A DNA stretch of 32,263 nt, taken from positions 1 to 32,263 of the forward strand of contig JAFGWW010000299.1 in NCBI GenBank assembly GCA_016936955.1, in the 5' to 3' direction. Below, one piece after another: positions 5,089 to 32,263 of the stretch. The notes below the pieces were generated by a model. The model saw only the letters and a list, made by a program, of their open reading frames with translations. It was not told the DNA's origin and made no database searches. Each line of letters starts with the position of its first letter. The stretch's first letter is position 1. The position numbers were made by a program, and so were the translations under genes. Source of the DNA: Planctomycetota bacterium. GTDB taxonomy: Bacteria > Planctomycetota > SZUA-567.

Positions 5089-5229
5089 TTGAGCCAAGCT
5101 TTCGCATTCAGAAAACTTATGCGGAGAGCATCATTGCAAAATATGCGCTAGGTCGCTGGGTACGGCTTTCGCTTTCCCCTGCGTAAATGAAAATTTGATA
5201 TATATGGAATTCATCCGCATTGTCGCGGC

Positions 5230-5548: not shown

Positions 5549-5586
5549 TTACAATGTTCGTCATGGCATCAACACGAAAGGTAATT

Positions 5587-6906: not shown

Positions 6907-6941
6907 AAGTTTAAACCTGCTAAAACTTAACCCTCTCTACA

Positions 6942-7784: not shown

Positions 7785-7895
7785 CAGCAATGTGCAAATA
7801 AACGCAATTCTATCTAACGACAACACATAATATATCGGGTATTGTTCACGCAGCATATGGCTGTGCTGTATACAAAACTACCCGGAGATTGTGAG

Positions 7896-9299
7896 ATGAA
7901 GAGGATTGGCAAATTGCGCATGATGCGGTCTGATGAAATCGAATCATCTGGTATCGGCATTGGATTTGAATGTCTTGACAGGGAGATCTTCGATCCCGAG
8001 AGATGTTACGACAAGCTCGCAGAGATAGGAGTCAAGCACGCTCGTTGCCAGACCGGATGGCTCAGGTGCGAGAAAGAGAAAGGCGTCTATGACTTCGACT
8101 GGCTGGACAAGATTGTTGACAACTTGCTACAGCGCGGCATCAAGCCATGGTTTAATGTATCCTACGGCAATCCGCTTTACATGGATGGTGGCGAGAGTAA
8201 TGCCTGCGTAGGGATGGTGCCGCTGTACTATGGTGATGAGACGCTTCAGGCATGGAGGCAATATATAAATGCTTTGGCAATGCATTATCGCGATCGAGTT
8301 TCTCATTTTGAAATCTGGAATGAACCAGAAGGAATCGATTTCTGGCAACCAAAGGCGCCTGATCCATTAGAGTACGCCAGATTCATCCGGGTCACCGCAC
8401 CTTTGATTAAAGATGCAATTCCCGACGCGAAGATAGGCGCCTGTTCAAACTTCGTATTCTATCCCGAATACATGGTTCCTCTATTTCGCAGCGGGATTGC
8501 TGAGTTGCTCTCATTCTACTGTGTCCATGCCTATCGTATCCAACCGGAACTGCACTATGCCAGAGAATTGAGGGCATTGAGGAAACTCATGGATTGCAAT
8601 GGGGGAGAACATGTCGACATATGGCAGGGCGAATCGGGATACGCATCACATTTTCCTGAGAATCACTGGCTCGGCACATATGTGCGCGAGAGCGAAATCA
8701 ATCAAGCGAAATGGCTGCTTCGGAGATTTTTTACCGATTGCTACCATGGCGCAAAGATGACCTCATTCTTCCAGATGGTTGACATGACAGCCAAACCATA
8801 TCAAAAAGCGGTCAATACTGTTCAATCGCCCGCACGCCATGGCATTCTGAATGGCAATACTTACACACCAAAAATGGCGTACAACTGCCTGGGAAATGTC
8901 GCTGCAATTCTGGATGCGGATACGAAACCAGCCGATCTTTTCGCCAAGCTAAGCCTTACTAAAGCATTTCCCAAATCAATGCGGACATCCAGACTCCCTG
9001 ATATATCGGCCACGGTTTTGGGATTTGAAAGAAACGGGTACCCGCTCTACGCTTACTATATTCCAGAGGATGTTCAGATGGAGTACGGGAAAGTTAATGG
9101 CGTAACGTTAGAAGTCCTGAAAGATGAATGTTTACAAAACATCAACGACCCGGTACTGGTCGATATGCTTGATGGTGAGATATTTTCCTTCGCTCCTCAC
9201 CACGACGGCAAGCATGCACTATGCTTTACGGAGCTTCCAATAACAGATTATCCAGTCATCATCACTGATCGAATGGCACTTGAAAACAGGATCGCCTAG
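7896..9299 (+). CDS. Glycoside hydrolase, GH39-like TIM barrel
   Basis: KHARCQTGWLRCEKEKGVYDFDWLDKIVD, RVSHFEIWNEPEGIDFWQP (acid/base NEP) and VDIWQGESGYAS (putative nucleophile). ORF 7842..9299; ATG 7896 after CGGAG. Confidence 0.75.
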   Translation: MKRIGKLRMMRSDEIESSGIGIGFECLDREIFDPERCYDKLAEIGVKHARCQTGWLRCEKEKGVYDFDWLDKIVDNLLQRGIKPWFNVSYGNPLYMDGGESNACVGMVPLYYGDETLQAWRQYINALAMHYRDRVSHFEIWNEPEGIDFWQPKAPDPLEYARFIRVTAPLIKDAIPDAKIGACSNFVFYPEYMVPLFRSGIAELLSFYCVHAYRIQPELHYARELRALRKLMDCNGGEHVDIWQGESGYASHFPENHWLGTYVRESEINQAKWLLRRFFTDCYHGAKMTSFFQMVDMTAKPYQKAVNTVQSPARHGILNGNTYTPKMAYNCLGNVAAILDADTKPADLFAKLSLTKAFPKSMRTSRLPDISATVLGFERNGYPLYAYYIPEDVQMEYGKVNGVTLEVLKDECLQNINDPVLVDMLDGEIFSFAPHHDGKHALCFTELPITDYPVIITDRMALENRIA

Positions 9300-13836: not shown

Positions 13837-14979
13837 TCACTGGTGCAGATGAACGACCTTTGCCGGACTGAACCCGTTGAAGTGCGTGGCGGAGGCGATA
13901 CTGTAGGCGCCGATTTTGGGGCTGAATACCAGATCACCACGCTTCAGGGTTGAGGGCAGCTGCTCGGCCATGCTGATCACGTCAAGAGCGTCACAGGTCG
14001 GGCCGAAGACCGTGCAGATCTCTTTACGCCCCTTTTTGAAAGATTCAATTCTGTACTGGCAGTGATCAAAAATAATGCCGGAAAATGTATTGTACACGCC
14101 ATCGTCGATGTAGTAACAGAGCTTTCCATCCCGTACAGCCTTGCCGATAATGCGACACACAGCCGTGCCGGCAGTGGCGACGAGAAACCGACCGGGCTCG
14201 GCAAGAATTTCCACGTCCTTTGGGAAGAGACGGTCAAGCTCAGCATTGATCGTGCGGGCTAGTTCAGCGAAGGGACGGACGGTCGCGTCGTAAGGTGCGG
14301 GAAAGCCTCCGCCGATATCGAGAAGGTTCATCTTGTGGTAACCACGGTCCTGCACCTCGCGATAGACGTTTGCGGCGAGATTGATGGCCTGCACGAAATT
14401 CTCATAGTTGGTTGTCTGGCTGCCGACGTGGAAACTGATGCCTTCTACCGTGAGTCCGGCACGGTCGGCGGCGAGGATCAGGTCCACCGCCTCGCCCGAC
14501 CCGGCGCCGCACTTTGATGAGAGTTCGACCATGGCGCCGGTATTCGGAACCTTGAGCCGCAGAACGAGCCCAGAATCGGGGGCGTAGCGCTTGATCTTTT
14601 CAATCTCCTCGGCATTGTCGAAGGTGACAAGCGCCTTGTAGCGATTGAGGTGCCGGAGGGTATCCTCGTCCTTGATAGGATTTGCGTAGATGATTTTATC
14701 CCAGATCCAGTCCTGCCGTTCTTTGGCCGGCATCTTTTTGATGTACTGGTAGACGGTCTTGAATTCCGGCATGGACGCCACATCGAAGCTCGCGCCCGCT
14801 TCAAAAAGCGTGCGGACGATCTGCGGATCGGGGTTGGCTTTGACAGCGTAATAAGCCTGTACCCGGGGAAGGTACTTACGGAACAGGACATAGTTACGGC
14901 GCAGTTCGTTGTGATCCACGACAAAGATCGGGGTGCCATGCTCTTTGGCGAGTGCCTGCAATTCCGCCTGCGTTGCCAT
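13837..14979 (-). CDS. Type III-fold PLP-dependent ornithine/lysine decarboxylase
   Basis: AYYAVKANPDPQIVRTLFEAGASFDVASMPEF (PLP-Lys), FHVGSQ, LDIGGGFP, EPGRFLVA, VFGPTCDALDV; group IV decarboxylase hallmarks. Confidence 0.88.
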   Translation of the reverse strand: MATQAELQALAKEHGTPIFVVDHNELRRNYVLFRKYLPRVQAYYAVKANPDPQIVRTLFEAGASFDVASMPEFKTVYQYIKKMPAKERQDWIWDKIIYANPIKDEDTLRHLNRYKALVTFDNAEEIEKIKRYAPDSGLVLRLKVPNTGAMVELSSKCGAGSGEAVDLILAADRAGLTVEGISFHVGSQTTNYENFVQAINLAANVYREVQDRGYHKMNLLDIGGGFPAPYDATVRPFAELARTINAELDRLFPKDVEILAEPGRFLVATAGTAVCRIIGKAVRDGKLCYYIDDGVYNTFSGIIFDHCQYRIESFKKGRKEICTVFGPTCDALDVISMAEQLPSTLKRGDLVFSPKIGAYSIASATHFNGFSPAKVVHLHQ

Positions 14980-15007
14980 AGGGAACTCCTTAAAATGTGA
15001 CTTTAAA

Positions 15008-16357
15008 TCAGCTCTTGGGCTGCCTGGACGGATCGAGGGCGATCATCGGGTTGGCAGCAGAAACGGTAACGGTGGCGGTGGAGTTGGCCAATTCCTCTTC
15101 CAGCGCCAGGACGTTGCCATTAAACGACTCGGCGCTGTTCGGGGTGATCTCCTTCACCTCCGTCGGCAGGCCGATCTGGTTCAGCAATTCAATAAACGGA
15201 TCAGGGTCAAGCTCTTCGACGTTGACCATGGTCTGCGGGTCCCATGTGCCATTGGCCACCAGTATGGCTGCGGCAATCGGCGGAACGCCGGCCGTGTAGC
15301 TGATGCCCTGACTGCCGAGCTCTTCGTAGCAGGACTTGTGGTCTGAGACCTGATAGATCAGCACTTCGCGGGGTTTGCCGTCTTTGGTGCCCTTGACGAA
15401 ATTGCCGATACAGGTTTTGCCGGTATAGCCGGGAGCAAGAGATTTTGGATCCGGCAGCAGTGCCTTGACAACCTTCAGCGGGACTACCTCCTGACCGGTG
15501 CTGAGGGTGACAGGCAGGTGATCGAGAAAGCCCAGAGTGCGCAGAACCGTAAAGACATTAATGTAATGGTTCCCGAATCCCATCCAGAAGCGGATCGAAT
15601 TGGCGTCGATATTGGCGGAAAGGGAGTGCAGTTCGTCGTGGCCGTTCAGGTACACGGGGCAGTCGCCGACGACGGGGAACTTAACGGTTCGTTTTACCGA
15701 GTGGGTAGGATACTCTTTCCACTGACGGTCAATCCATGTCCAGACCTTGATGAATTCGCGGAAATTGATCTCGGGATCGAAGTTGGTTGCAAAGTACTTG
15801 CCGTGGCTGCCGGCGTTGACATCCACTATATCGATGACGTCGATGGTGTCAAAGTAATGCTTGCGGGCCAGAGCGCAATAGGCGTTGACGACGCCGGGGT
15901 CGAAGCCCACGCCGAGAATGGCGGTCAGCCCTTTCTCCTTACAGCGGTCGCGGCGCTTCCACTCGTAATTTCCGTACCAGGGTGGATTCTCGCAGACCTT
16001 TTCGGGATCTTCGTAAATGGCGGTATCCATGTAGACTGCGCCGGTTTCAAGGCATGCTTCAAGAACCGCCATATTGACAAACGCGTTACCGAGATTAACG
16101 ACAATTTCACTGCCGGTCTCCTGGATGGCGCGGACAGTGGCAGCCACGTCCAGGGCGTCAAGTTGACGGGTCGTCAGACTTCCCGCCGGATCCTTCAGGT
16201 GTCCCATGGAACGGATACTATCGGCGATCTCATCGCATTTGCTTAATGTACGGCTGGCAATACAGATGTTGCCAAGGACATCGTTGTGCATGGCTGCTTT
16301 GTGCGCAGCGACATGGGCGACGCCACCGGCGCCGATAATCAATACGTTCTTCTTCAT
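15008..16357 (-). CDS. Carboxynorspermidine/carboxyspermidine dehydrogenase (saccharopine dehydrogenase family)
   Basis: MKKNVLIIGAGGVAHVAAHKAAMHND (Rossmann), VYMDTAIYEDPEKVCENPPWYGNYEW, AILGVGFDPGVVNAYCALA; sits directly between the decarboxylase and CANSDC genes. Confidence 0.87.
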   Translation of the reverse strand: MKKNVLIIGAGGVAHVAAHKAAMHNDVLGNICIASRTLSKCDEIADSIRSMGHLKDPAGSLTTRQLDALDVAATVRAIQETGSEIVVNLGNAFVNMAVLEACLETGAVYMDTAIYEDPEKVCENPPWYGNYEWKRRDRCKEKGLTAILGVGFDPGVVNAYCALARKHYFDTIDVIDIVDVNAGSHGKYFATNFDPEINFREFIKVWTWIDRQWKEYPTHSVKRTVKFPVVGDCPVYLNGHDELHSLSANIDANSIRFWMGFGNHYINVFTVLRTLGFLDHLPVTLSTGQEVVPLKVVKALLPDPKSLAPGYTGKTCIGNFVKGTKDGKPREVLIYQVSDHKSCYEELGSQGISYTAGVPPIAAAILVANGTWDPQTMVNVEELDPDPFIELLNQIGLPTEVKEITPNSAESFNGNVLALEEELANSTATVTVSAANPMIALDPSRQPKS

Positions 16358-16379
16358 GGGTCATTCTCCTCTTGTATCG

Positions 16380-17492
16380 TTACGAAAGGCTCTTTTTATA
16401 ATCATCGTAGCTGAAGGTGCGGATAGTTTCTATGGTGTTGTCCAGACGACGGACTGCTATGGCGGGCATGGGCAGGCCATTGAACCAGTTCTTCTTGACC
16501 ATGGTATACCCGGCGGCATCGGCGATGCGGATGGTATCGCCCGCTTTCGGGACTCGGGAAAGGCGGGTGGTGCAGAAAACATCCCCCGCCAGACAGCTGC
16601 GCCCGGCGATCGTGACCGGATGCTGGCCCGGACCCGGATGGGCGATCTGTGCCTCCAGACGATAAATCAGCAGGTCCAGCATATGCGGTTCGATGGATGC
16701 GTCAACTATGGCGATGGTGCGCCGATTCTTCACAACATCCAGCACTGTGGTGACAAGCTCGGTAGACCTGGTAATGGCTGCTTCGCCCGGCTCAAGGTAG
16801 ATCTGCAATCCGTGGGTATCGGAAAAGGATTTCAGCTTATCGCAGAACCGGTCCAGCGGGTAGCCATCTTTGGTGAAGAAGATGCCACCGCCGAGGCTGA
16901 TCCATTCCAGCTGCTGCAGAAGTTTGCGGTAGCGTTTGCCCAGTAGATCCAGGGTCTCGGAAAGCTGGTCAAAATTATCGTTTTCGCAATTGAAGTGGAA
17001 CATTGCGCCTCGAATCAGTGGCGCAATTTCCTGCAGGGCTTTTTTATCGGAGACGCCAAGGCGGGAGAAGCGGCGGGCCGGATCGGCGAGGTCAAAATGG
17101 GAGTAGCTGACCCCCGGATTGATCCTGATCCCGATATTCATCCCGGCAACGACTTTCTGGTAACGCTTCAATTGCGATACGGAATTGAAGATGATCTTGT
17201 CGGCAAACGACTTGAGCTCTTCTACCTCCTCCGGTGGATAGGCCACGCTGTAGGCATGGGTCTCTTTGCCGAAGGTTTCTTTACCAAGCTTTGCCTCATA
17301 AAGAGAGCTGCTGGTAGTGCCGTCCATGTATTCGCGCATAAGGTCGAAGACACACCAGGTTGAGAAGCACTTCAGAGCAAGCAGTGATTTTGCTCCCGCC
17401 TGCTCACGGACCTGGCGAATGCGTTCAAGGTTGCGGACAAGCTTCTGCTCATCAATCAGATAGTAAGGAGTTGCGGGTGCGCTCATAGCCAA
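16380..17492 (-). CDS. nspC: Carboxynorspermidine/carboxyspermidine decarboxylase
   Basis: TPYYLIDEQKLVRNLERIRQVREQAGAKSLLALKCFSTWCVFDLMREYMDGTTSSSLYEAKLG, NPGVSYSHFDLADPARRFSRLGV, LEPGEAAI; characteristic NspC sequence. Confidence 0.9.
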   Translation of the reverse strand: MAMSAPATPYYLIDEQKLVRNLERIRQVREQAGAKSLLALKCFSTWCVFDLMREYMDGTTSSSLYEAKLGKETFGKETHAYSVAYPPEEVEELKSFADKIIFNSVSQLKRYQKVVAGMNIGIRINPGVSYSHFDLADPARRFSRLGVSDKKALQEIAPLIRGAMFHFNCENDNFDQLSETLDLLGKRYRKLLQQLEWISLGGGIFFTKDGYPLDRFCDKLKSFSDTHGLQIYLEPGEAAITRSTELVTTVLDVVKNRRTIAIVDASIEPHMLDLLIYRLEAQIAHPGPGQHPVTIAGRSCLAGDVFCTTRLSRVPKAGDTIRIADAAGYTMVKKNWFNGLPMPAIAVRRLDNTIETIRTFSYDDYKKSLS

Positions 17493-18170: not shown

Positions 18171-18387
18171 TTAATGAACGGCCTGGCTTTTCCACGGCAA
18201 TAGATGTTTCAATGGGTTATATTACTTGAACCGGAAAAAGGTTAAAATACACACTGTGGTTTTTGTGTATATTTAAAAAGGTCATTAATGACCCACCAAA
18301 AAGCCTTGCAATTATTTTTCCATAAATTGAAAATTCTGTAACCTTTAGGCATCAGCAAGACATTTGAGGGTGAAAGAGGAAGAATAT

Positions 18388-18951
18388 ATGAGTAATGGGT
18401 TCTGCCCGGACAGTATTGTTGCGAAAGTCAGAGACGGCGATATTGGAGCCTATGAGTACATCATAAAGGCTTATGATGATGATGTGCGCATGGTTCTAGG
18501 AGCTATTCTTCCCGACAATTCCATGGTCGAGGATGGGGCGCAGGAAACCTTTATTACAGCTTATCACAAACTCGAGGACTATGCAGCCGGGACAAACATG
18601 CAGGCATGGATAAAGGAAATCGCCAGGAATACGGGCAGGAACATGCGCAGAAAATGGCTGCAGCAAAACCGCCTGAAGTGCTCGTACCATGAGCACATAC
18701 GCATTGAACTTGGCGACATGATAGAGGAGAAGGTTGAGGCCATAAGCAGTGATGTTTCAGAATCACTGCAGGATTGCATTCGGCGATTACAGGAAAATAC
18801 CCGCCTGGTTGTCAATTTGTATTACGAAAAAGGGAATGAGTGCGCCCAGATCGCAGAAAGCCTGAATCGGACTACGAGTTGGGTTAAGGTTACGCTATAC
18901 CGAGCACGGCTTTCCCTTGCACAATGCATGGAAGCTAAAGGAATTATCTGA
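18388..18951 (+). CDS. ECF-type RNA polymerase sigma factor
   Basis: DGDIGAYEYIIKAYDDDVRMVLGAILPDNSMVEDGAQETFITAYHKLEDYAAGTNMQAWIKEIARNTGRNMRRK (sigma2) and NLYYEKGNECAQIAESLNRTTSWVKVTLYRARLSLAQCM (sigma4). ATG 18388 with GAGGA upstream. Confidence 0.88.
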   Translation: MSNGFCPDSIVAKVRDGDIGAYEYIIKAYDDDVRMVLGAILPDNSMVEDGAQETFITAYHKLEDYAAGTNMQAWIKEIARNTGRNMRRKWLQQNRLKCSYHEHIRIELGDMIEEKVEAISSDVSESLQDCIRRLQENTRLVVNLYYEKGNECAQIAESLNRTTSWVKVTLYRARLSLAQCMEAKGII

Positions 18952-18952
18952 G

Positions 18953-20494
18953 ATGGAAGAGCGTATCGAGAGCCTTACCCATGATTTTCTCTCCGGCCAC
19001 ATGGCGGAAGAGGACGGGCTTGAGTTGCTCGATGACATCCGCAACAATGACGCCCTCATGGACGAACTCTCCGACCAGGTTTTTCTGGATGCAATACTCA
19101 AACAGCTTTATGCCAAACCAACCGATAGTCAGACTGTCATACAAAAGCTAAAGGAAATGCGCGCCAGCAATACTGCAAACGCGGTAATTTCGAGGCTTAA
19201 AGAAGCAAAAAGTGAGAGGAGCACCTCGCGCAGGAAATCAAAACGCGTTAGTGGCGCCTCCCGCTCAAGCAGAAATTCGCGCCGCTCTGACAGGAGACGC
19301 AATATTATTCCCCTTTGGCTTAGCGCGTCCCTATGTGCGGCTGCTGCCGTTATAATCCTGCTGATATATGCTGGCCGTACTGCACCGATAGAGAGCAAGC
19401 AGGGAATCGGAATAGCCAACTCAAGCAATGGCACAAATGCAAATACCAACGCCGACAGCGAACTAATCCTTACAATGAAATCCTTCAAGGGATCTGTAAG
19501 GAAGATCTCAAATGCCGGTGCAACTCCTGCGTTAAATCAGATACGTATTTTGCCGGGTGAAGCTATCAGCACAGAAAAGGACAGCGTTGCAGTTGTGGCA
19601 TGGCCTGATGGCACCGAGATGTCTATTTCGCAAGAATCTTATGTAAGAGTGGCTGATACAACCAAACGACTCCGCAACAGGGAGCTATATCTCGACAAGG
19701 GCAGCTTTTCCGCGAAAGTCGAGCCCCAACCCGTTGGCCGCCCATTTATCGCCAACTCTTCCCACGGCGGGATAGAAGTTGTTGGCACGGAATTCACCTT
19801 TATGACCGAACCGGATATGGATCGCCTGAAAGTGACCAAGGGAGCGGTCAAGATTAGAAACGTTAGCTCCGGCAAAACGGCTGAAGTCAAGGCTGGATAT
19901 GAAGGCCGGTCCGGAGGCGATGATGTGCTTGTTGTTCGTTCCGCTGGAGAAATGCGCAGGATTGATCCGAAGAATAAAGCTGTCGTGGATTTTGACCGCT
20001 ATATGCTTGGCAATGCATCGGCAGAAAATGTTGAAAATGCCTTCTCGGTTTTCGCTGCGAAGTCTGCAAAGAGCGAGCCGCGCAAGCTCCGCAAGTGCGA
20101 TAAGGAATTGTTCATTGTCGACCTGGGTCAACCCGGGAAGGCATTCACGACGAAACCAGGCGGCAGTCCGGATTGGTCGCAACCCAACAAAGGCTTCTTC
20201 GAAGATGTCGACCGGAAAGTTGCATTAGCGACCTCCTGCGGGGTATCCCTCAAAATAACTGTCATTGATCTGGAAAACGCGCTAAGTGTCGACAACACAC
20301 CCCGCGACAGGGCAGCGGCCTTGGGATTTGTCAGATGGTTCTCCCCCATTGTGAAAACATGGATTAGCCAGGGCCATGAGGTTGCATTGGTCAATGCGTA
20401 TCTGCCAAAGGGGATGCCGAAGAGTACCAGCTTGTTACTTACCGACATGTCTGCTGAATTCAAGGCGGTTATCAGCACGCATAAAGACAAATAA
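18953..20494 (+). CDS. FecR-like transmembrane anti-sigma/regulatory protein with long C-terminal extension
   Basis: ATG 18953, 1 nt after the sigma stop; one TM segment (IIPLWLSASLCAAAAVIILLIYAG); FecR core NRELYLDKGSFSAKVEPQPVGRPFIANSSHGGIEVVGTEFTFMTEPDMDRLKVTKGAVKIRN. Confidence 0.75.
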   Translation: MEERIESLTHDFLSGHMAEEDGLELLDDIRNNDALMDELSDQVFLDAILKQLYAKPTDSQTVIQKLKEMRASNTANAVISRLKEAKSERSTSRRKSKRVSGASRSSRNSRRSDRRRNIIPLWLSASLCAAAAVIILLIYAGRTAPIESKQGIGIANSSNGTNANTNADSELILTMKSFKGSVRKISNAGATPALNQIRILPGEAISTEKDSVAVVAWPDGTEMSISQESYVRVADTTKRLRNRELYLDKGSFSAKVEPQPVGRPFIANSSHGGIEVVGTEFTFMTEPDMDRLKVTKGAVKIRNVSSGKTAEVKAGYEGRSGGDDVLVVRSAGEMRRIDPKNKAVVDFDRYMLGNASAENVENAFSVFAAKSAKSEPRKLRKCDKELFIVDLGQPGKAFTTKPGGSPDWSQPNKGFFEDVDRKVALATSCGVSLKITVIDLENALSVDNTPRDRAAALGFVRWFSPIVKTWISQGHEVALVNAYLPKGMPKSTSLLLTDMSAEFKAVISTHKDK

Positions 20495-20689
20495 TTCATT
20501 CACCCGATATCTCATCGTTGCATCCCTTTTTGACTATCGTCGAAGAGGCCTGGTGTAACCGTGCTTTCTATCCCGCATTTTTTGATGATCCCCGAAAAAT
20601 AAGAAGATTCCTGTAACCTCTCCACGCTGACACGACATCTGTATGTGAATAGGAGGAACTGGGAGACTGTTTTGAAAGAAGGAGAGAAA

Positions 20690-23600
20690 ATGAGGTATAA
20701 TGGACTGCGAAAATGGTTTAGGAAAGCAAGAAAGCAAAGCCGTACGGTCACCTGTGGTCTGGTGGTGTGCATGGCTCTGCTCGCGCCCTTGTCAGTTTCA
20801 GCTGCCGATGTGACTGTCGACCTCGGGCCCGAGATAAATGCTGGCGGCACGGCGGGCGGCAATCAATACCAATCCGACCTCCGGGTTAATCCTCTCGACC
20901 TGAAAAACTACTGCATAACCACCAAGAACAGCACGGACGAAACCAAGACCGTGCTCCTTCATACCGCCGATGGTGGGGCGTCATGGAGCAGCGTTCCGAT
21001 GACAAATACCGGCGACCCGGACGTAGTCTACGATCTTTCCGGCAACGCCCACTGGATGTTCATCGACAAGGCTAACAGCAAGCGCCTGGGTTACCGCAAG
21101 AGTACCGATGGCGGTAAAACGTGGGGAACTAAAGTGGTTATGGACTCTGCCCTTGACCATCCACATATCGCCTGCGACATGAACCCCAGCAGTCCTTACA
21201 AAGGCTCTATTTATATAGCTGGCCGCAACTTCTCGGGAGAGAAGGTTACTATTTATCGTTCCCGCGACGCCGGCTTAACCTGGAGCAAAACCGTTCTCTC
21301 CCCCGGTACCCAGCTCGGCTTGGGGTTTGTTTTCAATCTGGTCATTCTTTCGGACGGAACCCTGATCGTGCCCATGCGGACCAAGAACAACATACTGGCT
21401 GTGGACGGCTATTACGCAGGTAACGAGGTGGATCTATATTGCCTGCGCTCAACCGACGGTGGCGTGAATTTTGACCAGCCGATTCTTGTCTCACCCAAAG
21501 ATAGCCCTGCAAAAAGTGGCCCTGGTGGATTCTACGGCATGAGCGCCGGAGTTGGGAAATACAACGGAAAGGACAGGCTTTATATCTCTTTCGTGAAGAA
21601 CTTCCCCTCCCCGAAGCCATGTGGATTAATGCTTACCAACTCGGACGACGGCGGAAAGACCTGGAGCACCCCAAGACAAATCGTGGGACCGACCGCCAGC
21701 GACTGGGGCGCGGGTTCCTGCAGCGTTATGGTGAATAGGGATGGCGTGATTGGAATCCAGTTTTATAGTATATATAAGGGCGATAGCAAGTTCGACGTCT
21801 TCTTTACCGCATCGGCCGACGGCGGACAGAATTTCACCACTCCCGTCCGTATCACCAGCGGCCCCATGATTGAACCAGCTCCGCAGCCACGCTATTTCGG
21901 CCAGGATCAGGTTTACGGCGACACCGACAAGGACGGGAAGTTCCATGTGGTCTGGACGGACGCCCGCAACAACGCGACCCAGTATACCATTTACACCCGC
22001 GTAATAACCGTCAACGGCACATTAGAACCGGTCAATAGCGCCCCCGTAATCGAGTCAATTTACGCCGATCCCTCGTCAGTAACTCTTCCTGAAAAGACGA
22101 CCCTCGGCGTAATCGCCAGCGATGCGGATATGGACAAGCTTTCCGTAAATTGGAGCAAGACAGCGGGGCCCGGAAGTGTTTCTTTTACCAGTCCCGGTTC
22201 TGATGTGACGAGCGTATCATTCAGCGTGCCGGGAGAATATGTTTTCAAAGCGACTGTGAGTGACGGGGAGATATCCATTAGCGACGAGGTCATCGTTACA
22301 GTAAATGCTGCACCGGTTCCGGCCAACGGTCTCGGGATTACCCGCGAGGTGTGGTTTGACATTACCGGCACCAGCGTCACGAATCTCACCAATTCGTCCC
22401 GCTATCCCATGCAGCCGGATCTGCGTGAAATTCGGTCTTCCTTCGAAGCGCCCACTAAAATTGGCGACTACTACGGAACAAGGATGCACGGGTATCTGCT
22501 GGCGCCGGTGACGGGCGATTATACGTTATGGATTGCTGGTGACGATAACTGCGAGCTATGGCTCAGCACGGATGAGTCTACCTCTCAGGCAAAAAAAATT
22601 GCATACATTGCGGGTTGGACCAGTTCGCGTGAATGGACCAAATACAGTTCGCAGCGTTCGGCCGCGATCAGACTTGTCGCCGGACAACGGTATTATATCA
22701 TGGCTCTTCAAAAAGAGCATTCTGGCGGGGATTGCCTTGCGGTTGCGTGGCAAGGACCGGGGCTCAATCAGCAAGTCATCGACGGCAGTTATCTGTTCCC
22801 ATACAACGAAACCGTAAGCGATCTGTCGGTTGAGCTCAATGGTGTTCTCTCATCCCATGACGTAGAGGTTTATGCCGGCTCCCAGAACACGGTTGGCACC
22901 GCACTTGTCGAAGATAATGGTAGCACCCTGCACATAACCGGTAATCTTTGGAGAAAAGTAAATCTCGGTTCTGTAACTGTTACCAAAAATACTGTTCTTG
23001 AATTTGACTTCGCCAGCAGCGCCCAAGGCGAAATCCACGGCATCGGTTTTGATAATGATGACGGCGTAAGCTCTGACCTTACCTTTCAGGTTTATGGCAC
23101 CCAAGGCTGGGGGATTACCAAATTCCGCGACTACGTTGCCCTCTCTGTGAAACACTATGTGATCCCGGTTGGCCAGTATTATACCGGAACTTTCTCGCAT
23201 CTTATGTTCGTCAATGACCATGATGTTACCAGCCCGACCGGCGATAGCGTATTTTCCAATATAAGGATTTACGAGCAGGCTGTTGCCAGTCCAATCGGGG
23301 AAACCGGCACCGTCAAGGCTGCCCAAGCATCTAGTACAGAGTGGCATAAAGTGACCTTCCGGAATAGTTATACCAACCCCGTTGTTGTAATGGGGCCGCC
23401 AAGCTACGAAGGTTCTGATCCGTCGTCTATTCGTGTCCGCAATGTCACAACCACCAGCTTCGAGTGGCAGCTCGATGAGTACGATTATCTTGACGGAAAA
23501 CATGGCGAGGAGACTGTTGGATATATGGTTGTCGAAGCGGGCAGCTACCGTCTCGCCGATGGTTCCTTACTCCAGGCGGGCAAGGCACAGGTCACCGCCC

Positions 23601-24118
23601 AGTTTACCGGCATAACCTTCCCTGTTGCTTTTGCCTCAACACCTGTCTCTTTGACGCAAACCATAACGGTTAACGATGGCAGCGCCGTGGTTACGCGCCA
23701 GACCCAGGACGGCCCGACCGGCTTTCAGGTTTGTTTGCAGAACCAGGAGTCCAGAGCCTCCACCCCCCACTCGACAGAGACGGTTGCATGGATATCCTTC
23801 AGCGCCGGAGCCACTGACTTTGGCGGCCTGAAAACAAGCGTCTCCCCTCTTACCACCGAGATAGATCACGAATGGGCAGCAGTCAGGTTCTCGGAATCAT
23901 TCAGTGTTGCCCCAGTAGTCCTCAGCTCGATGCAGAGCACTCTTGGTGGTGACACTTCAGCCCTTCGCATGAAGTCCTTCGCCACGGGAAGCGTAAGTAT
24001 CATGATAGAAGAAGAAACATCAAAAGACACCGAGGTATGGCACAAGAAAGAAACCATTGGCCTTGTAGCAGTTGAGGCAGGCGACATCGCTGGAAGCGAG
24101 GTAAATGTTATCAAGTAA
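20690..24118 (+). CDS. Large secreted sialidase/BNR-repeat protein with PKD/Ig-like, PA14 and tandem C-terminal beta-sandwich repeats
   Basis: Asp-boxes STDGGKTWG, SRDAGLTWS, SDDGGKTWS, SADGGQNF; Ig-like NSAPVIESIYADPSSVTLPEKTTLGVIASD; PA14 GYLLAPVTGDYTLWIAGDDNCELWLSTDE; two copies of W-x-x-V-x-F..S(Y/F)..P-V-V..(E)-T-V/I-G..V-V/A-E-A-G. ATG 20690 after AAGGAG. Confidence 0.82.
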   Translation: MRYNGLRKWFRKARKQSRTVTCGLVVCMALLAPLSVSAADVTVDLGPEINAGGTAGGNQYQSDLRVNPLDLKNYCITTKNSTDETKTVLLHTADGGASWSSVPMTNTGDPDVVYDLSGNAHWMFIDKANSKRLGYRKSTDGGKTWGTKVVMDSALDHPHIACDMNPSSPYKGSIYIAGRNFSGEKVTIYRSRDAGLTWSKTVLSPGTQLGLGFVFNLVILSDGTLIVPMRTKNNILAVDGYYAGNEVDLYCLRSTDGGVNFDQPILVSPKDSPAKSGPGGFYGMSAGVGKYNGKDRLYISFVKNFPSPKPCGLMLTNSDDGGKTWSTPRQIVGPTASDWGAGSCSVMVNRDGVIGIQFYSIYKGDSKFDVFFTASADGGQNFTTPVRITSGPMIEPAPQPRYFGQDQVYGDTDKDGKFHVVWTDARNNATQYTIYTRVITVNGTLEPVNSAPVIESIYADPSSVTLPEKTTLGVIASDADMDKLSVNWSKTAGPGSVSFTSPGSDVTSVSFSVPGEYVFKATVSDGEISISDEVIVTVNAAPVPANGLGITREVWFDITGTSVTNLTNSSRYPMQPDLREIRSSFEAPTKIGDYYGTRMHGYLLAPVTGDYTLWIAGDDNCELWLSTDESTSQAKKIAYIAGWTSSREWTKYSSQRSAAIRLVAGQRYYIMALQKEHSGGDCLAVAWQGPGLNQQVIDGSYLFPYNETVSDLSVELNGVLSSHDVEVYAGSQNTVGTALVEDNGSTLHITGNLWRKVNLGSVTVTKNTVLEFDFASSAQGEIHGIGFDNDDGVSSDLTFQVYGTQGWGITKFRDYVALSVKHYVIPVGQYYTGTFSHLMFVNDHDVTSPTGDSVFSNIRIYEQAVASPIGETGTVKAAQASSTEWHKVTFRNSYTNPVVVMGPPSYEGSDPSSIRVRNVTTTSFEWQLDEYDYLDGKHGEETVGYMVVEAGSYRLADGSLLQAGKAQVTAQFTGITFPVAFASTPVSLTQTITVNDGSAVVTRQTQDGPTGFQVCLQNQESRASTPHSTETVAWISFSAGATDFGGLKTSVSPLTTEIDHEWAAVRFSESFSVAPVVLSSMQSTLGGDTSALRMKSFATGSVSIMIEEETSKDTEVWHKKETIGLVAVEAGDIAGSEVNVIK

Positions 24119-24674: not shown

Positions 24675-26389
24675 TCAGGATTTTGAGAGCTCATGTTTTC
24701 CACCTTTCACTACAAAAGGTTGGCCATGATTACTTTGGGGTAAGTGGACAGTTGCCGTGATAGGTTCGGGGATATCCACATGAATTTGAAAAGCTTTCCC
24801 TGATTTGTTTTCAAAAGACATCTCAACTGGCCCATGGGGGGTAGGAAGTTTTATCTCCCCATATTCCAAGGAACCTGGCTGGGGTTGAATTATCATGTCG
24901 CCAAAACCCGGTGCGGTCGGCCGTAATCCCATCAGTCTGCGGGGTATGATGTTGGCTGGAGCAGCCCCCCATGCATGGTTCCAGTCGAGATTGTTTTTGT
25001 ATTTCCAATCCCATGCCTCAAGGGTCATTGTTGAACCAAGCTCAATCATGTTCCACCAGCTTCGGTCATGTCTGGCTGTCATAAGGGACAACTCATATCC
25101 GTCTTCACCTGCTCCATACAGGCCGTCAAGAAGATGCTGCGCTCCATAAACACTGCATGCCATCCCTCTGGACTTTATAAATTCAATTACCGACTTCGTT
25201 CGGTCCTGCGAGACAAGGCCAAAAGCCAAAGCAAACATGTTTGCATGAAGTGAGGCATGGGTTGAACTCTCGCCATCAATATACACGCCTCTGTCTTTAT
25301 CGAAGAGCAGCTCGTTAATTGATTTTGCAACAAGTGCAGCCGCTGCACTCAAATTTGATGCATCTGCCTTACGGTTTAAAGCTTCGGCAATGTGCGCCAT
25401 TGCCTGCAAGGCTTTATAGTGGAATGCGTTTACAACCGTATTGACCGGTGCCATGTCGTATTCATCCCGCTCCCCGAAGTTTCCCTTCGTAAACTCTTTT
25501 GGCGGCCAGTCAACAAGGTCTTTAGGAGAACGGTCCAGATGCAACGCATCAACAAGCTCGCTGGTTACCATCCCGGTTTCGGTGCTTATCAGGCCGTCTT
25601 CCCTCTTCAGGCATTCGAGAGTGCGCAGCTGCAGGTCATCATAACATTCGTCCATAAATGCCGCGTCGCCTGTATACATGTATTCAGCCCACGCCATTAA
25701 GGGGGAATGAAGCAGCCATTCGGTCGGCCATGTCGGATGATGGATAAAATGTCTTTGCGTAGCCCTCGCCATTTCATAGCTGGCATCAAGGCAGTAATGG
25801 CATAGCTGGTTGATGTAAGCATCACCCTCATACGGGATGCGTTCCCTATCCCCGTCCACATACAAGCCGCAAAAAGTTGTGGCCTTGATTGTATGTTTGC
25901 ATATATCCCACACCTGGTTCAGTGTTTCGTCAGAGCACTTGAAGTGCGAGGCATCATCATTGAAGGGGTAATGCACCATCACCTGCGATATGTCGATAAG
26001 CTTCGCCGATTTGCCGTCGGGAATGATAATCTCACAATAACGGAACGGCATTACCTCGCCGATCTCGGGAGGCATCAGGATAGCCTGCGGGCCCGTATTT
26101 CTTTCATCCGGGGGAATTGCCACCGTATACGTCTTAATGCCTGCCTTTACCGGGATTTCAATTTTCCGGTAACGGACGCACCCTTCCGGTTCGCGTTCAA
26201 GCTTATTTTCCGCCGACAGTTTTTCGCAAGATGCACCTCGATTGAGCAATCGTTGCTGATATCAAGGGAGATTTCAATTGTCCCAAAAACGGCTTTTTCA
26301 AATGCGATAAAGAAATGCCCCGCATTTATATTTAGCATTCGCTTTGGCTTTAAGTGTGTTGTTGTGAGGGGCAGGCTGGCCTGGTTCAT
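24675..26389 (-). pseudogene. Alpha-L-rhamnosidase-like six-hairpin glycosidase (GH78-like), interrupted by a frameshift near 26226-26230
   Basis: ORF 24675..26249: DDASHFKCSDETLNQVWDICKHTIKATTFCGLYVDGDRERIPYEGDAYINQLCHYC, ELGSTMTLEAWDWKYKNNLDWNHAWGAAPANIIPRRLMGLRPTAPGFG. N-terminus in another frame (26389 down): GHFFIAFEKAVFGTIEISLDISNDCSIEVHL then EKLSAENKLEREPEGCVRY. Confidence 0.75.
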
Positions 26390-26688: not shown

Positions 26689-27534
26689 TTATTCTACCAG
26701 CTTGATCGTTCCCATTGCAGCGGGCGAGATGTGGGGGCAGCCGTGCTGGGTGGGCGCCCAGTTTGCGGGAAAGAGTTCGAGTTTTCCGTTCTTTTCCGAA
26801 ACGCGCCAGTCGTAGCGCAGGAAATTCGCGCGCATGGTCATGGCCTTGAATTCTTTCGCGCCCAGTCGGTGCAGAAGCGTCTTGGCGGGAAGAGCAAGCT
26901 CCACCGTCCAGCCCGTTTCTTTGCCATTCTCCGTCAGCTTGCCGGTTCCGACCCTTAGCCCGTCGAACTCCCACGCGCGAAAACCCCACAGGTCTTTCGA
27001 GGAGAACTTGGGAGTCAGGCGCAGGCTGGGCGTGGACTCCGCTTCGGCGGTGAGGAGGAATATCTTGTCCAGCACCTCACCCGCGGGATTGATCTGTAAT
27101 TCGACATATTGCCGTGCGTCGCCCACAGGGTCGATAAAGACCTCGCACACATCCTCGCGGTAAAGGTCTTCGTCGTGTTTGTACTTGCCGGTTGATATTA
27201 TGTTTTTATCGTGGCAGGTAAAGAAGACATAAAGATCGGACTTGCCCCACATGATGCGTACTTCCGTTCTGGGGTCCGGATTAAGAGGAGATGGCTTGAT
27301 GTGCAGCGGAGGGGTTAGTCCGTCGATAAGGGCCGCCTTGTCCCAAAGCTTTTCATCGAGCTTGCCGTCGATCACCGGTGCGGTTGCGGTAAAGGGAATG
27401 GTGAGAGACGGGGTTGTTGCCGTTTTGGTTTCTTTCGGCGCTGCCGGTTTCTGAGCGGAACTGTCGCTGCCGCAGCCTGCGAGGACGGATGCGAAAAGGA
27501 TGAAGAAAGCCAATATGCAATTTCTGGAGCCCAT
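26689..27534 (-). CDS. Lipoprotein with CBM9-like domain
   Basis: Lipobox MGSRNCILAFFILFASVLAGCGSD; FTATAPVIDGKLDEKLWDKAALIDG..TEVRIMWGKSDLYVFFTCHDKN..EDLYREDVCEVFIDPVGDARQYVELQINPAGEV..GWTVELALP is a CBM9_1-like pattern. Confidence 0.85.
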   Translation of the reverse strand: MGSRNCILAFFILFASVLAGCGSDSSAQKPAAPKETKTATTPSLTIPFTATAPVIDGKLDEKLWDKAALIDGLTPPLHIKPSPLNPDPRTEVRIMWGKSDLYVFFTCHDKNIISTGKYKHDEDLYREDVCEVFIDPVGDARQYVELQINPAGEVLDKIFLLTAEAESTPSLRLTPKFSSKDLWGFRAWEFDGLRVGTGKLTENGKETGWTVELALPAKTLLHRLGAKEFKAMTMRANFLRYDWRVSEKNGKLELFPANWAPTQHGCPHISPAAMGTIKLVE

Positions 27535-27584
27535 GAAATCTCCTTCTTTAAAAGGCGCGAAAATTGATAGAGAAAACGTTTCGA

Positions 27585-28352
27585 CTACGGAGGCGGAACC
27601 GGGGCGTAGCCGTTGAAATAATCGAGAAGGTACTCTCCTCCTCGCGAATTTTCACCCTTGTCCACCCTGCTCTTGTAGCCGTTAAAAAAGGTTGAACTGT
27701 TGCGGTTTCGGACCGTGTCGTCGGGGTCGTTGAAGGTTGCGGCCGCGCCGTTGGCGTTTACATAGTTATAGGCTGTTGGGTGGTTGTTGCGCCACTGTGA
27801 GTTGCTTTTGAGGCAGACGTCGTTGGCGAGGCCAAAATCGCCAGGTACCTTCTCCAGTTTGAAGCCGGTGTACATGGCGAATGTGTTGTCTCGCTTGCTG
27901 TAATAAAGCGCAGCGAGAGGCTCGCAGACGTTGTATGAACTGCGGGTATCGTGCTTGAGGCTGTACAACCTCTTTGATGTGGAACTGAAACCGGGTTGAA
28001 CCTTGGTCCAGCCTGGAGCACTCTCCGAGGCGGGGCAGTAAAGCACTTCCGGTTCGCTCGAATCATAGTCCATGGCGCCGTCGTCGATGAGGGTTCCGAG
28101 GTGGCGAATTCGCGGGTCGCTCTGGCGGGTGAGAAATTCGGTTTCCCACATCTGGTAGCCGTAGGCGTAGCCGTCGTTGTTGTCCGCATAAAGGCTGCAG
28201 AGCACATAGACCTGTTTGAGGTTGTTCTTGCAAGCGGCGATGCGGGCCTGGTCGATAGCAATTCCGAGGGCAGGCAGGAGCAGGCCTGCGAGAATGGTTA
28301 TGATCGAGATCACGACCAGCAGTTCGACGAGGGTAAATGCTCTTCTGCGCAT
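27585..28352 (-). CDS. Prepilin-type N-terminal cleavage/methylation protein
   Basis: [65 protein letters not shown] extends to 28403, start at 28352 has GAGG 8 nt upstream. Confidence 0.85.
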
Positions 28353-28399
28353 CAGGCAATCCTCGCAACAAGCCTTCCTGCTTTCAGCATACCTCATAG

Positions 28400-29077
28400 T
28401 CAACGCCCAGACCAGAAAGTATCCATGCCCGCTTCGGGATATTTTATTTCGGCGGGGAACATGGTTTCCGAATGGTAGTCGGTGAAGAGGACGTTGCTGC
28501 GGCCGTAATGCCGCTCGAAATCACCGATGCGGTCGGCCGCGAAGCCGGAGGTTATAATAACCGACCCGCCGGATTGTTCAGTTCTTATCGTCTCGAAGAC
28601 GAGGGCGGTGCGGCTCGGGCGCAAAATCATCCTGGATTTTTTCGGAGTCCAGTAATTCTCGTTACGGATTCCGGTGGTGCACGGGTCGGTGTGCAGTATT
28701 TTCATGTTCATGCCGTAATCCTTGGCCGGGGTTTTCTGCCAGGCGTTGGTGCGCCCCATGTTTCCGGGGCAGATGAAAATGCCGTCCCACTCCTTGTTCG
28801 GATTGAGGGTTACTCTCCAGTTCGGAACGCTGGCGTGCTCCGGCTCCGCCCCCGGGAAAGGATCTTTCGTGGGGGCCGGCAAATATCCGCCGAACTCGTC
28901 GGTGTACTGGCAGAACAGGACGCCCATCTGTTTTTCATTGTCCATGCAGGCGACAAGCCTCGCGTTTTCGAGAGCCTGCTGCAAGGTCGGCATGAGGAGC
29001 GCCGCAAGGACTGTTATGACTGCAATAACAATAAGCAATTCGACAAGGGTGAATGCTTTTCTGCAACAGTGCATCAT
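28400..29077 (-). CDS. Prepilin-type N-terminal cleavage/methylation protein
   Basis: [68 protein letters not shown]-terminal [14 protein letters not shown]. Confidence 0.88.
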
Positions 29078-30153
29078 CTCTTCCCTTTGAGCGGGCCGGT
29101 GGACTCTCCGACAAAGAGAGGCATTTTATCCGGACCGATGACGAGGGGGCCGTCCCACTCCCCGCCGCCGATGATCCAGTTGAAACAAATTTCGAGATAG
29201 GGGTCTGGGTCTTCGAGTTCGAGAACGGTGAGTGATGGGTTGAGATAGCGATAGTAGCCGTCGCCGCCGAGGGAGCAGATGGAGATGTCTTTCCCGATCT
29301 TTACGCCTTCTTCGGAGAGAGCCCTCATCACCCCCATGCTTGACACTTCGCCGGTGATGAAAATAGCCGAGGGGAGTTTCTTTCCGGAAGAGATGTAGGC
29401 CTTCATGGTTTGATAGCCCTGCTCGATAGGCTTGCCGTAATTAGGCACGGGGTTGTCGACAAGCTGGGCTTTCTCGCCGAGTTTTCGCTCTTCGCACCAG
29501 ATGCGCCACTGGTCGATGCGGCGCAGAACGCTCTGCGAACTGGGGAGAAAATTCCAGCAGTCCACACTGTAATGGCCAAGCGACGCGAGATAATCCAGCA
29601 GGTCCGGCACGCAGGAGGGCGGGGTGGTCAGAATGCTCGGGATGCCGAAGTCAGATCCGTCGTGATCCATGCAGACCACGGGTGTGCCCTTCTTTTTTGA
29701 TTGGTCGGCGAGGCGGCCAGAGAGCCACTTGTTGCCTTTGGGGTCGATGCCGCAGAGCAGGACGGCGTCGAAGGATTCGAGGGTTTCGCCCACGATGGGG
29801 TCGTCGGGATGGACGAAGTCGATCGCCCTGACCTGCACGCCCATGCGGCGCCCGGTGTGTTCGGTCGCGCGGCATAACCACTTTGTGAAGGGGGAGGACG
29901 AGGCGGGGCTGAGGAAGGCGACGCGGTAATTGGCCTCCTGCCGATCCATGGTGGCGCTGTTGTCGAGGCGGCCGTTCTCGTGCCTGACCAGCGTGCCCTC
30001 GTCGACAAGCATCTGTATGGCGCGCCGCGCAGTCATGCGGGATACCCCGAGCTCGCTTGCCAGACGCCGCTCGGAAGGGAGACCTCCGATAACATAGTCT
30101 CCCTTGCCGAGGCGTGATTTAAGTGTTTCAGCTATTGCCTGGAACTTTGCCAT
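29074..30153 (-). CDS. GntR-HTH/LacI-type sensor transcriptional regulator
   Basis: N-terminal LPSERRLASELGVSRMTARRAIQMLVDEGTLVR (GntR wHTH); C-terminal periplasmic-binding-like GMQ..ESFDAVLLCGIDP..FITGEVSSMGVMRALSEEGVKIGKDISICSLGGDGYYRYLNPSLTVLE. Confidence 0.88.
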   Translation of the reverse strand: MAKFQAIAETLKSRLGKGDYVIGGLPSERRLASELGVSRMTARRAIQMLVDEGTLVRHENGRLDNSATMDRQEANYRVAFLSPASSSPFTKWLCRATEHTGRRMGVQVRAIDFVHPDDPIVGETLESFDAVLLCGIDPKGNKWLSGRLADQSKKKGTPVVCMDHDGSDFGIPSILTTPPSCVPDLLDYLASLGHYSVDCWNFLPSSQSVLRRIDQWRIWCEERKLGEKAQLVDNPVPNYGKPIEQGYQTMKAYISSGKKLPSAIFITGEVSSMGVMRALSEEGVKIGKDISICSLGGDGYYRYLNPSLTVLELEDPDPYLEICFNWIIGGGEWDGPLVIGPDKMPLFVGESTGPLKGKR

Positions 30154-30163
30154 TTATTCACCT

Positions 30164-32263
30164 TTATTTGATCAGATAACTGTTGAGCTCCATTTTACTG
30201 CTCTTTACCGTGAAGACCAGCTTGCCGTCTTTCTCGACAGCCGGGATCTCCGCGCCGGTAACCAGATCGGTTACCGTGGTTTTTCCGGCGAGGGGAAGGC
30301 TGACCTCAAACTCGGCGTCCTTCATTCCCTTGAACACGACCGCCGCATAAACGCCATTTGCGCTTTCATAGGTACGGACGCGGACGTCCTTGGCCGCCGG
30401 GTTCTCCGCCGCGACCGCATCCTCGACCACAGTGCCCTTGATGTCGGGCAGGGCGAGGTAGGCCTGGGCGAAGCGGCGATGGTCGTCGGCAAATCCGCAC
30501 CCATAAGTGTATGTCGTAAATGTTATCACATTTGCATCGACATGGTAAAGGGTCATTATCTGATGGGCCATGGAAAAACCCTGGCCGCCGGGGGTCATCT
30601 CGCTGGTCTGGTAGTCGTCGTTCTGGATATTCCAGCGCCCCTTTTCCTCATAGTAGAACATGTCGCACATGGCCATGCCGCTGCCGGTGCGGAAGTATTT
30701 GAGGTACTGGTCGTTGTCAGCCAGATAACGCCAGTGCACCGGCGCGAAGAGGTAGATATCCTTCACGTCCTTGAAAAGTTCGGGGTGGAGGTTCCACTCC
30801 ATTGCGCCGAAGTTGGTGACGATATTAAGGTAGTCGGCGTCCTTGAGCTTGAGCTGTTCGGCCTTGATGCGCTTGTACCACTCTCCCGCGCGGTCGACAT
30901 TGTAATAGTCCGACCAGTCCTGGGGCTTGTTGAAGCCGTTTGGCGTGGGGCCGAGGTTCCAGCCGTCCTGATCCCAGTTATAGTAGAAGAGCTTGAGGTC
31001 GGGGCGGTAGCTCTTGAGTTTGTCGCGCATCTTGATAAGGAAATCGCGGCGCTTGCCGTACCACCACATATGGTACTCGTTCTTCATCTTCTTGGAGGCC
31101 CACTGGGCGATCTTCTTGGCGTCGCCCTCGGGCATGGTGTTGCCGGTTTCCTTGCAGAACATCTCCACATCCTGCTTGCCGTAGCTGCAGGTGATGCGCT
31201 CATTGCGCATGCGCCAGAGGAGGCCCTTGATGTGCGGGTATTTCTCGATCTTGCTGCCCACCATGTCGTCGAGCAGGGTCTCCATCTCTTTCCACGTGTC
31301 GGGGTGGAGGATGTTGGCGCCCCACTGGCAGAAGCGGCCGCAGGGGTCGATTTTGCCGTCGGGGCCGATCACCCATGCCTCTTTCGGGAGGGCTGGGCTG
31401 CCGCCGTATTCAAAACGCGGGGCGATGTCGATACCGGCCTTGGCGGTAGCGGCAAGATACTTTTCGTAAATCTCCGAATTATCCTCGCCGGTCAGTTTTG
31501 TCGCCGAGTTCCACGCGTCCGGTTCGGGAACGGAGAAGCCGACCCTGGTTTTCATATAGGCGTGGCCAACCCATTTCTGGAAGACCGGGGAGATCATGTT
31601 CAGCCCCATGAAGCGGGCGTCCCGGGCAAGGTCATAAGGCACGCGGTCGGGCATGCGTTCCCAGTCAGCCATGAGAATGCGCTGAGGCAGGCCGTCGGGT
31701 TTGCGGATCACTGGGTAATGTTTCTCGATGTCCGGGATCTCGTAAAGGCGGATCTCGCCCGCTGCGGGGCCGGCCTCGAACTCCGGCGCGTAACAGCGGC
31801 CGATGTCGTGGAAAGCAACCCAGAAGCCGTGCTTGCCGCTGGCGGCGCGGGAACCTTTGTAGCCGAAGGTGAAGTCGTCATTGAAGACGATATTGTCAAA
31901 CCACTGCCATTCTCCGGTCTGGGGGTAGTTGCCCTTCGGATCGTCAACAGCGGTGCCGGAGCGGAAGCCTGTGCCCTCGTAGTTGCGCCCCGTCTTGATA
32001 TGCATGGCCTGATACCGCGCCACATTGTCGGGGTAGGATACGCGCAGGATATAACCAGTGTGCGGTTTGACCTCGCCGCGGCCGATGCGGTAGAGGAAGT
32101 GCTCGTTGTTGTTGGCTTCGCGGTATTTCTTGCCTTTGAACTCCTTGACCGTTACGCCTTTTTTCCACGTTGCATAAGCGCGGCGGCCGACCCAGCTGTC
32201 GCGGATGCCGCCTTCCTTGTAGGGGTGCTCGTCGGTGGCGGGGTCTTTGGAGCAATCGATCAC
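30164..32263 (-). CDS. Large glycoside hydrolase-like protein, N-terminus beyond the right edge
   Basis: 699 aa open to window end; aromatic-rich TIM-barrel-like IDIAPRFEYGGSPALPKEAWVIGPDGKIDPCGRFCQWGANILHPDTWKEMETLLDDMVGSKIEKYPHIKGLLWRMRNE and C-terminal beta-domain VRVRTYESANGVYAAVVFKGMKDAEFEVSLPLAGKTTVTDLVTGAEI. Confidence 0.65.
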   Translation of the reverse strand: MIDCSKDPATDEHPYKEGGIRDSWVGRRAYATWKKGVTVKEFKGKKYREANNNEHFLYRIGRGEVKPHTGYILRVSYPDNVARYQAMHIKTGRNYEGTGFRSGTAVDDPKGNYPQTGEWQWFDNIVFNDDFTFGYKGSRAASGKHGFWVAFHDIGRCYAPEFEAGPAAGEIRLYEIPDIEKHYPVIRKPDGLPQRILMADWERMPDRVPYDLARDARFMGLNMISPVFQKWVGHAYMKTRVGFSVPEPDAWNSATKLTGEDNSEIYEKYLAATAKAGIDIAPRFEYGGSPALPKEAWVIGPDGKIDPCGRFCQWGANILHPDTWKEMETLLDDMVGSKIEKYPHIKGLLWRMRNERITCSYGKQDVEMFCKETGNTMPEGDAKKIAQWASKKMKNEYHMWWYGKRRDFLIKMRDKLKSYRPDLKLFYYNWDQDGWNLGPTPNGFNKPQDWSDYYNVDRAGEWYKRIKAEQLKLKDADYLNIVTNFGAMEWNLHPELFKDVKDIYLFAPVHWRYLADNDQYLKYFRTGSGMAMCDMFYYEEKGRWNIQNDDYQTSEMTPGGQGFSMAHQIMTLYHVDANVITFTTYTYGCGFADDHRRFAQAYLALPDIKGTVVEDAVAAENPAAKDVRVRTYESANGVYAAVVFKGMKDAEFEVSLPLAGKTTVTDLVTGAEIPAVEKDGKLVFTVKSSKMELNSYLIK

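Follow-up and report, generated by a model that had tools for sequence, protein, structure and literature searches.

Two genes with prepilin-type N-termini lie between a regulator of sugar-sensing type and a carbohydrate-binding lipoprotein in a Planctomycetota genome, which raises the question of whether the encoded pseudopilins are working parts of a polysaccharide system or bystanders. The window analysed here is one whole contig (JAFGWW010000299.1, C114, positions 1-32263, so that the end of the window is the end of the contig) of assembly GCA_016936955.1, and the genes in question occupy positions 26689-32263 of its minus strand. We consider it fairly probable that the locus serves polysaccharide utilisation under substrate control, as an operon of a recurrent cassette type consisting of a regulator, one or more pseudopilins and a secreted carbohydrate-active protein. 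As one operon the locus is ordinary, and its interest lies in its membership of this recurrent regulator-pseudopilin-secreted-enzyme cassette.

Layout of the locus

The five genes are, in order of transcription:

30164..32263, minus strand: predicted glycoside hydrolase (GH)-fold protein, truncated at its 5' end by the contig boundary (open reading frame (ORF) open to the window end; AF2/Foldseek fold)
29074..30153, minus strand: regulator with GntR winged-helix and Peripla_BP_3 domains (Pfam GntR, Peripla_BP_3)
28400..29077, minus strand: pseudopilin A, with prepilin N-terminus, Cys pair and H-X9-D (Pfam N_methyl; Shine-Dalgarno AAGGGAAG)
27585..28352, minus strand: pseudopilin B, with prepilin N-terminus (Pfam N_methyl; paralogues)
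26689..27534, minus strand: CBM9-like lipoprotein (Pfam CBM9_1; lipobox LAGC)

The ORF coordinates bear out the original prediction of a tandem five-gene run on this strand, with a gap of 10 bp between hydrolase and regulator and a 4-bp overlap between regulator and pilin A, the latter being an ATGA junction. Pilin B had been described as overlapping or adjacent to pilin A; it is the neighbouring gene but does not overlap, with a 47-nt gap from its likeliest start, ATG 28352, which has GCGAGG 8 nt upstream. TTG 28403 and ATG 28397, which would give an overlap or immediate adjacency, were rejected as starts, neither having a Shine-Dalgarno sequence. The lipoprotein gene follows after a further 50 nt. 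Each of the four genes downstream of the hydrolase gene is preceded by a plausible Shine-Dalgarno sequence, that of pilin B belonging to ATG 28352. No minus-strand sigma70-like sites were found between the five genes in a promoter-like scan which was itself not above chance, and terminator-like sites in the locus scan were at chance level only. A single transcript for the five genes is plausible from this arrangement. The first ORF is open to the contig end, which leaves the hydrolase without its 5' part and places both the start of the operon and its promoter region beyond the available sequence.

Recurrence of the regulator-pilin order

Tight operons are common in themselves; the part of this locus which is not due to chance is the recurrence of a regulator followed by a pilin. 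The source genome contains 105 prepilin-motif genes in 3.66 Mb, so two pilins in one operon, and the codon overlap between regulator and pilin A, are weak evidence alone. This density, together with the patchy numbers of pilins in relatives (1 to 95 per genome within one family), would also fit pseudopilins that are bystanders, members of an expanded family landing near many operons. We mapped 36 Peripla_BP_3 regulators, 23 GntR matches and 65 AraC regulators in the source genome, took in all contigs with pilins as well as the other contigs with regulators, and counted adjacency where a pilin started directly downstream on the same strand, with contigs outside the pilin list scored as negative. 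A pilin directly followed 14 of the 36 Peripla_BP_3 regulators but none of the 65 AraC regulators. When called genes were used, 12 of 35 regulators were followed by a pilin, compared with 33 of 455 other genes (7%) in the same pilin-enriched loci (P = 1.5e−5), and in three other genera (G001, G005 and G007; 63 loci) the corresponding fractions were 10/55 and 10/308 (P = 1.6e−4). Shuffling the pilin labels within contigs gave P = 5e−5 for the source genome and P = 8.5e−4 for the three other genera. The statistic covers four genera of one family, all draft genomes, with the regions in relatives picked by hand. The order was also polar, with the pilin downstream of the regulator in 23 gene-called cases (13 + 10) and upstream in none (0 + 0). 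This polarity, the enrichment under within-contig permutation, the lack of pilins after AraC regulators and the orthologous pairs found across genera (below) all argue against the bystander explanation, which we regard as improbable and disfavour.

Both GntR- and LacI-type N-termini were found among the regulators of the pairs. In most pairs the regulator seems to be the first gene of the unit; the present locus departs from this pattern in having the hydrolase gene 10 nt ahead of the regulator.

Two pilin-rich contigs and one unusual reading frame were also observed. Contig C269 (L048) carries a Peripla_BP_3 regulator then six same-strand pilins, and C379 (L036) carries five pilins in a row. 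On the minus strand of C462 (L047), at approximately 5670-7355, a prepilin lies in the same 579-aa open frame as a GntR/Peripla_BP_3 regulator, with no ATG, GTG or TTG start between them, so that the regulator would be the leader of the pilin; this is a single case and a possible assembly error. A second candidate fusion, an 814-aa frame on contig C40 of G005, was rejected because the frame simply stays open ahead of an ordinary LacI-type regulator.

Conservation in relatives

Regulator and pilin were also compared across genomes. An orthologous pair occurs in two genera (contig C2 of G001 and C25 of G007), with LacI-type regulators which are 65% identical and pilins which are 60% identical. 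The nearest same-family homologue of the regulator studied here (30-31% identity) lies on G001 contig C262, where a pilin starts 45 nt later; in a comparison of 140 pilins its best match was pilin A, with 26% identity in the globular part (E = 7e−12). In G032, a regulator homologue (38% identity) heads a one-strand run of regulator, GH16, GH38, pilin and pilin; of these tandem pilins the first scored 17.4 bits for N_methyl, below the cut-off, and the second matched DUF1559 at E = 2.2e−4, just below the cut-off. Across 22 complete pairs, regulator distances and pilin distances were weakly correlated (Mantel r = 0.27, P = 0.004). Gene order, recurrence and, in at least one clear case, co-inheritance of regulator and pilin are thus demonstrated at the level of sequence comparison. 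Conservation in relatives had been named as a check on the original prediction; it was found for the regulator-then-pilin order and for orthologous pairs, but not for the exact five-gene operon.

The original prediction had also argued that the overlapping codons make the pseudopilins parts of the polysaccharide system. That argument is weak because codon overlap indicates only likely co-translation of two genes, but its conclusion gains comparative support from the recurring order, the cross-genus orthologous pairs and the secreted carbohydrate-active genes which come next. On this evidence the pseudopilins probably have a working role in the digestion of polysaccharides.

Genes following the regulator-pilin pair

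Within 300 nt after regulator-pilin units we found mostly carbohydrate-active genes: GH42 + CBM4_9 + CBM9, GH42 (two more, both weak), GH2, GH5 + CBM9, GH5, GH10, beta-helix, LamG (two) and polysaccharide deacetylase, with CBM9 at the present locus. The genes after pilin-free regulators included GH94/GH130 phosphorylases and sugar oxidoreductases, and also fucosidases, GH42 and GH2. A signal-like N-terminus was present in 12 of 16 genes after regulator-pilin units and in 15 of 36 after pilin-free regulators, a modest difference (P = 0.026) obtained with a crude signal-peptide rule. A pilin therefore tends to occur with secreted enzymes, but the two sets overlap. The machinery available to the 105 pilins in the source genome is small in number: 13 T2SSE-type matches (four above 360 bits), 6 secretins and 2 A24 peptidases.

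Besides the modest size of the secretion difference, several points weigh against reading the locus as a conserved cassette in which the pilins have a role. The exact operon is not conserved, and the members of the same family that were sampled yielded no full-length homologue of the hydrolase. Approximately 90 of the 105 pilins in the source genome are not beside a Peripla_BP_3 regulator. In G002, which belongs to the same family, 48 Peripla_BP_3 matches stand against one prepilin motif, from which it follows that sugar regulation needs no pilins; with up to 105 such motifs in other genera, the number of pilins differs strongly inside this family. The regulator homologue of G022 (38% identity) has no prepilin motif in 11 kb of surrounding sequence, of which approximately 0.8 kb is downstream before the contig ends. 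The gene caller was home-made and based on codon usage, the pilins were detected by one profile, and the source genome is a draft in 506 contigs which is 61% complete. The structural models of the hydrolase and the pilin are weak, that of the hydrolase being of low confidence, and the globular domains of the pilins matched no family above its cut-off and no PDB fold, leaving binding or cargo roles without structural support.

Identity of the encoded proteins

Both pseudopilins (lengths 225-256 aa) carry an N-terminal N_methyl domain (PF07963, cut-off 21.2 bits), scoring 27.6 bits for pilin A (E = 2e−6) and 28.4 bits for pilin B (E = 1.1e−6). Pilin A also has a conserved Cys pair (alignment A5) and an H-X9-D motif near its C-terminus. 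The latter resembles the H-X9-DG motif of the expanded prepilin-like proteins in PVC bacteria (planctomycetes, verrucomicrobia, lentisphaerae), with D-Y in pilin A where that motif has D-G. Assignment of the pilins to three more specific families was rejected, all scores being below the cut-offs: the GspG equivalog TIGR01710 (22.3 and 28.4 bits, N-terminus only; cut-off 88.85), DUF1559/SBP_bac_10 PF07596 (pilin A 16.2 bits, E = 0.011; pilin B no match; cut-off 23.3 bits) and the Verru_Chthon cassette protein D TIGR02596 (25.0 and 19.8 bits; cut-off 70). The closest paralogues of pilin B are one on C230 (38% identity), one on C486 that follows a Peripla_BP_3 regulator, and one on C44 immediately behind a homologue of the C-terminal part of the hydrolase.

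The structural model of pilin A had a pLDDT of 70, with the globular part mostly at 40-85, and gave no significant PDB match; only its helix resembles type IV pilins. Most of the best PDB sequence matches of the pilins are also type IV pilins. These matches, together with the several tandem pilin arrays in the genome and a prepilin N-terminal signature that is common to pili and type II secretion systems (T2SS), fit an explanation in which the pseudopilins form an adhesive type IV-like filament or pilus tip attaching cells to polysaccharide, and do not serve enzyme export. The lengths of the proteins and their occurrence as single copies beside secreted enzymes fit a pilus and a pseudopilus alike, and we think the adhesive filament rather unlikely.

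The proteins may instead be DUF1559-like glycan binders, anchored in the membrane at the periplasmic side or surface, which have kept a prepilin-type signal and act alone outside any filament. DUF1559 (SBP_bac_10) proteins have been described as solute-binding and are expanded in planctomycetes and other PVC bacteria, with 74 in R. baltica (PMC2754498, PMC4807772), and pilin A and a pilin of the G032 cluster match the family weakly. Like that expansion, pilin A belongs to an expanded family with prepilin leaders and carries H-X9-D near the C-terminus; unlike it, pilin A departs from the motif at the final residue and falls short of the curated DUF1559 cut-off, as does the G032 pilin. No binding fold was recognised in the pilins, and we regard this explanation as unlikely.

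The regulator matched Pfam GntR at 50.3 bits (E = 1.8e−13, cut-off 27) and Peripla_BP_3 at 42.1 bits (E = 1.3e−10, cut-off 26.5), and has homologues in G032 (38% identity), G022 (38%) and G001 (31%). From this domain content we infer a sugar-sensing regulator which controls its own operon. The lipoprotein has a lipobox, LAGC, near its N-terminus and matched CBM9_1 at 37.8 bits (E = 2.4e−9, cut-off 23.4), with the best stretch covering profile positions 1-80 of 185. Paralogues of it lie on contigs C196, C393 and C31, of which C393 and C31 also bear pilins.

The visible part of the hydrolase is 699 aa. Profile searches gave no GH profile match and no Pfam or NCBIfam family match, and there was no credible PDB sequence match. 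Homologues with 25-28% identity were found in G020, G024 and G032, three genomes of other families; a contig scan with the hydrolase as query yielded no relatives, and a paralogue of its C-terminus lies on C44, where the relative of pilin B comes directly after it. An AF2 model built from five sequences (pLDDT 54) has beta domains at both the N- and the C-terminus and a beta/alpha region between them. The top Foldseek PDB matches of this model are all (beta/alpha)8 glycoside hydrolases (GH13/39/30/66), with a best E of 1.5e−11 but low TM-scores. The description of this gene as hydrolase-like relies on the fold of a low-confidence model and not on a Pfam family, and applies to a protein whose 5' end is cut; on the model it is likely to be a glycoside hydrolase, its family being unassigned. 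The G032 homologue (L245, approximately 3600-4995) runs on into two apparent SGNH/GDSL-type repeats with proline/threonine linkers between them, as read by eye and not by profile.

Proposed mechanism and comparison with known systems

In the mechanism suggested by the domain content, the GntR/LacI-type regulator would bind a sugar freed from the target glycan and the operon would be derepressed, providing the predicted (beta/alpha)8 glycoside hydrolase together with the CBM9 lipoprotein at the cell surface. Pilins A and B, having class III signal peptides, would be processed by prepilin peptidase and taken into one of a small number of shared machines for type II secretion or type IV pili. Each cassette would most likely bring its own pseudopilin and so adapt the shared machine to its glycan, and the adapted machine may export or display at the surface the co-induced enzymes, or hold the glycan. 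We infer co-regulation, export and binding. The broader proposal, that each sugar-sensing regulator switches on its own pseudopilin and thereby re-tools a few shared secretion or pilus machines for each polysaccharide, is put forward tentatively. If true, pseudopilins would be a modular, substrate-specific counterpart of the SusC/SusD pair within this lineage, with up to approximately 100 exchangeable subunits per genome.

The closest known case is the alginate cluster of Verruconatronum alginivorum (pgaptmp_000046-60), whose genes, a pulG-like pseudopilin among them, are induced together; alginate also brings over-expression of a further pseudopilin, and the genome has 67 homologues. The authors, whose proteome had one replicate per condition, suggest that the lyases are exported by a T2SS (PMC13274419). 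By analogy, this cluster supports the co-induction of pseudopilins with glycan genes from an independent lineage. As at our locus, the pseudopilin lies inside a polysaccharide-degradation cluster, and the phylum, taken broadly, is shared, but the lineage and substrate differ and the text of that paper gives no regulator directly coupled to the pseudopilin. The pseudopilins of the T2SS (GspG/GspH type) share with ours the prepilin N-terminus and an E5-type motif, and the best partial matches include GspG; unlike them, our pseudopilins have a larger, unrelated C-terminal domain, reach only 22-28 of the 88.85 bits of the GspG cut-off, and are encoded in glycan operons, not in a gsp cluster. In common with LacI/GntR-controlled polysaccharide utilisation loci, the cluster combines a regulator of sugar type with genes for secreted GH and CBM proteins; it differs in having pseudopilins in the middle, and profile searches found no match to SusC, SusD or TonB-receptor families among the cluster proteins up to the contig end. 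A literature search, in which papers in subscription journals were thinly covered, found no report of a regulator-pseudopilin cassette.

PVC bacteria are major polysaccharide degraders and some have tens to more than 100 prepilin-like genes. A fixed cassette would tie many of these genes to specific glycans and predicts which pseudopilin, sugar and enzyme go together.

Other genes in the window

The gene downstream of the lipoprotein, approximately 440 nt further on, is a possible additional member of the cluster:

24675..26249, minus strand: GH78 alpha-L-rhamnosidase, C-terminal two thirds (Pfam Bac_rhamnosid6H, 4e−45)

Its alignment with a 50%-identical homologue begins at residue 178 of the latter, and the N-terminal part was not found in frame. 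A short ORF (26147-26389, minus strand) precedes the gene in another frame, and a frameshift or a truncated gene (24675-26389) is possible; the N-terminus of the homologue gave no match in the other frame upstream.

A second carbohydrate cluster with a pilin (motif at 4387) occupies 708-9299 on the plus strand and contains a beta-helix/CBM9 protein, the pilin, a GDSL esterase, an AraC regulator and a GH39-like protein. At 18364-24118 (plus strand) an ECF-type sigma factor, a FecR protein and a 1157-aa BNR/PA14/lectin-type protein stand in a row and may form a surface-signalling unit. Close matches of a conserved neighbour gene include, among others, Lentisphaerae, Victivallales, Kiritimatiellales and other PVC metagenome bins, and by themselves suggest that the genome comes from the PVC group, probably from Lentisphaeria. 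On the minus strand at 13837-17492, two Orn/DAP/Arg-type pyridoxal phosphate (PLP) decarboxylases flank a saccharopine-dehydrogenase-like gene whose product is approximately 80% identical to proteins of Gammaproteobacteria and PVC bacteria alike; the arrangement suggests a polyamine pathway, one gene of which has spread horizontally.

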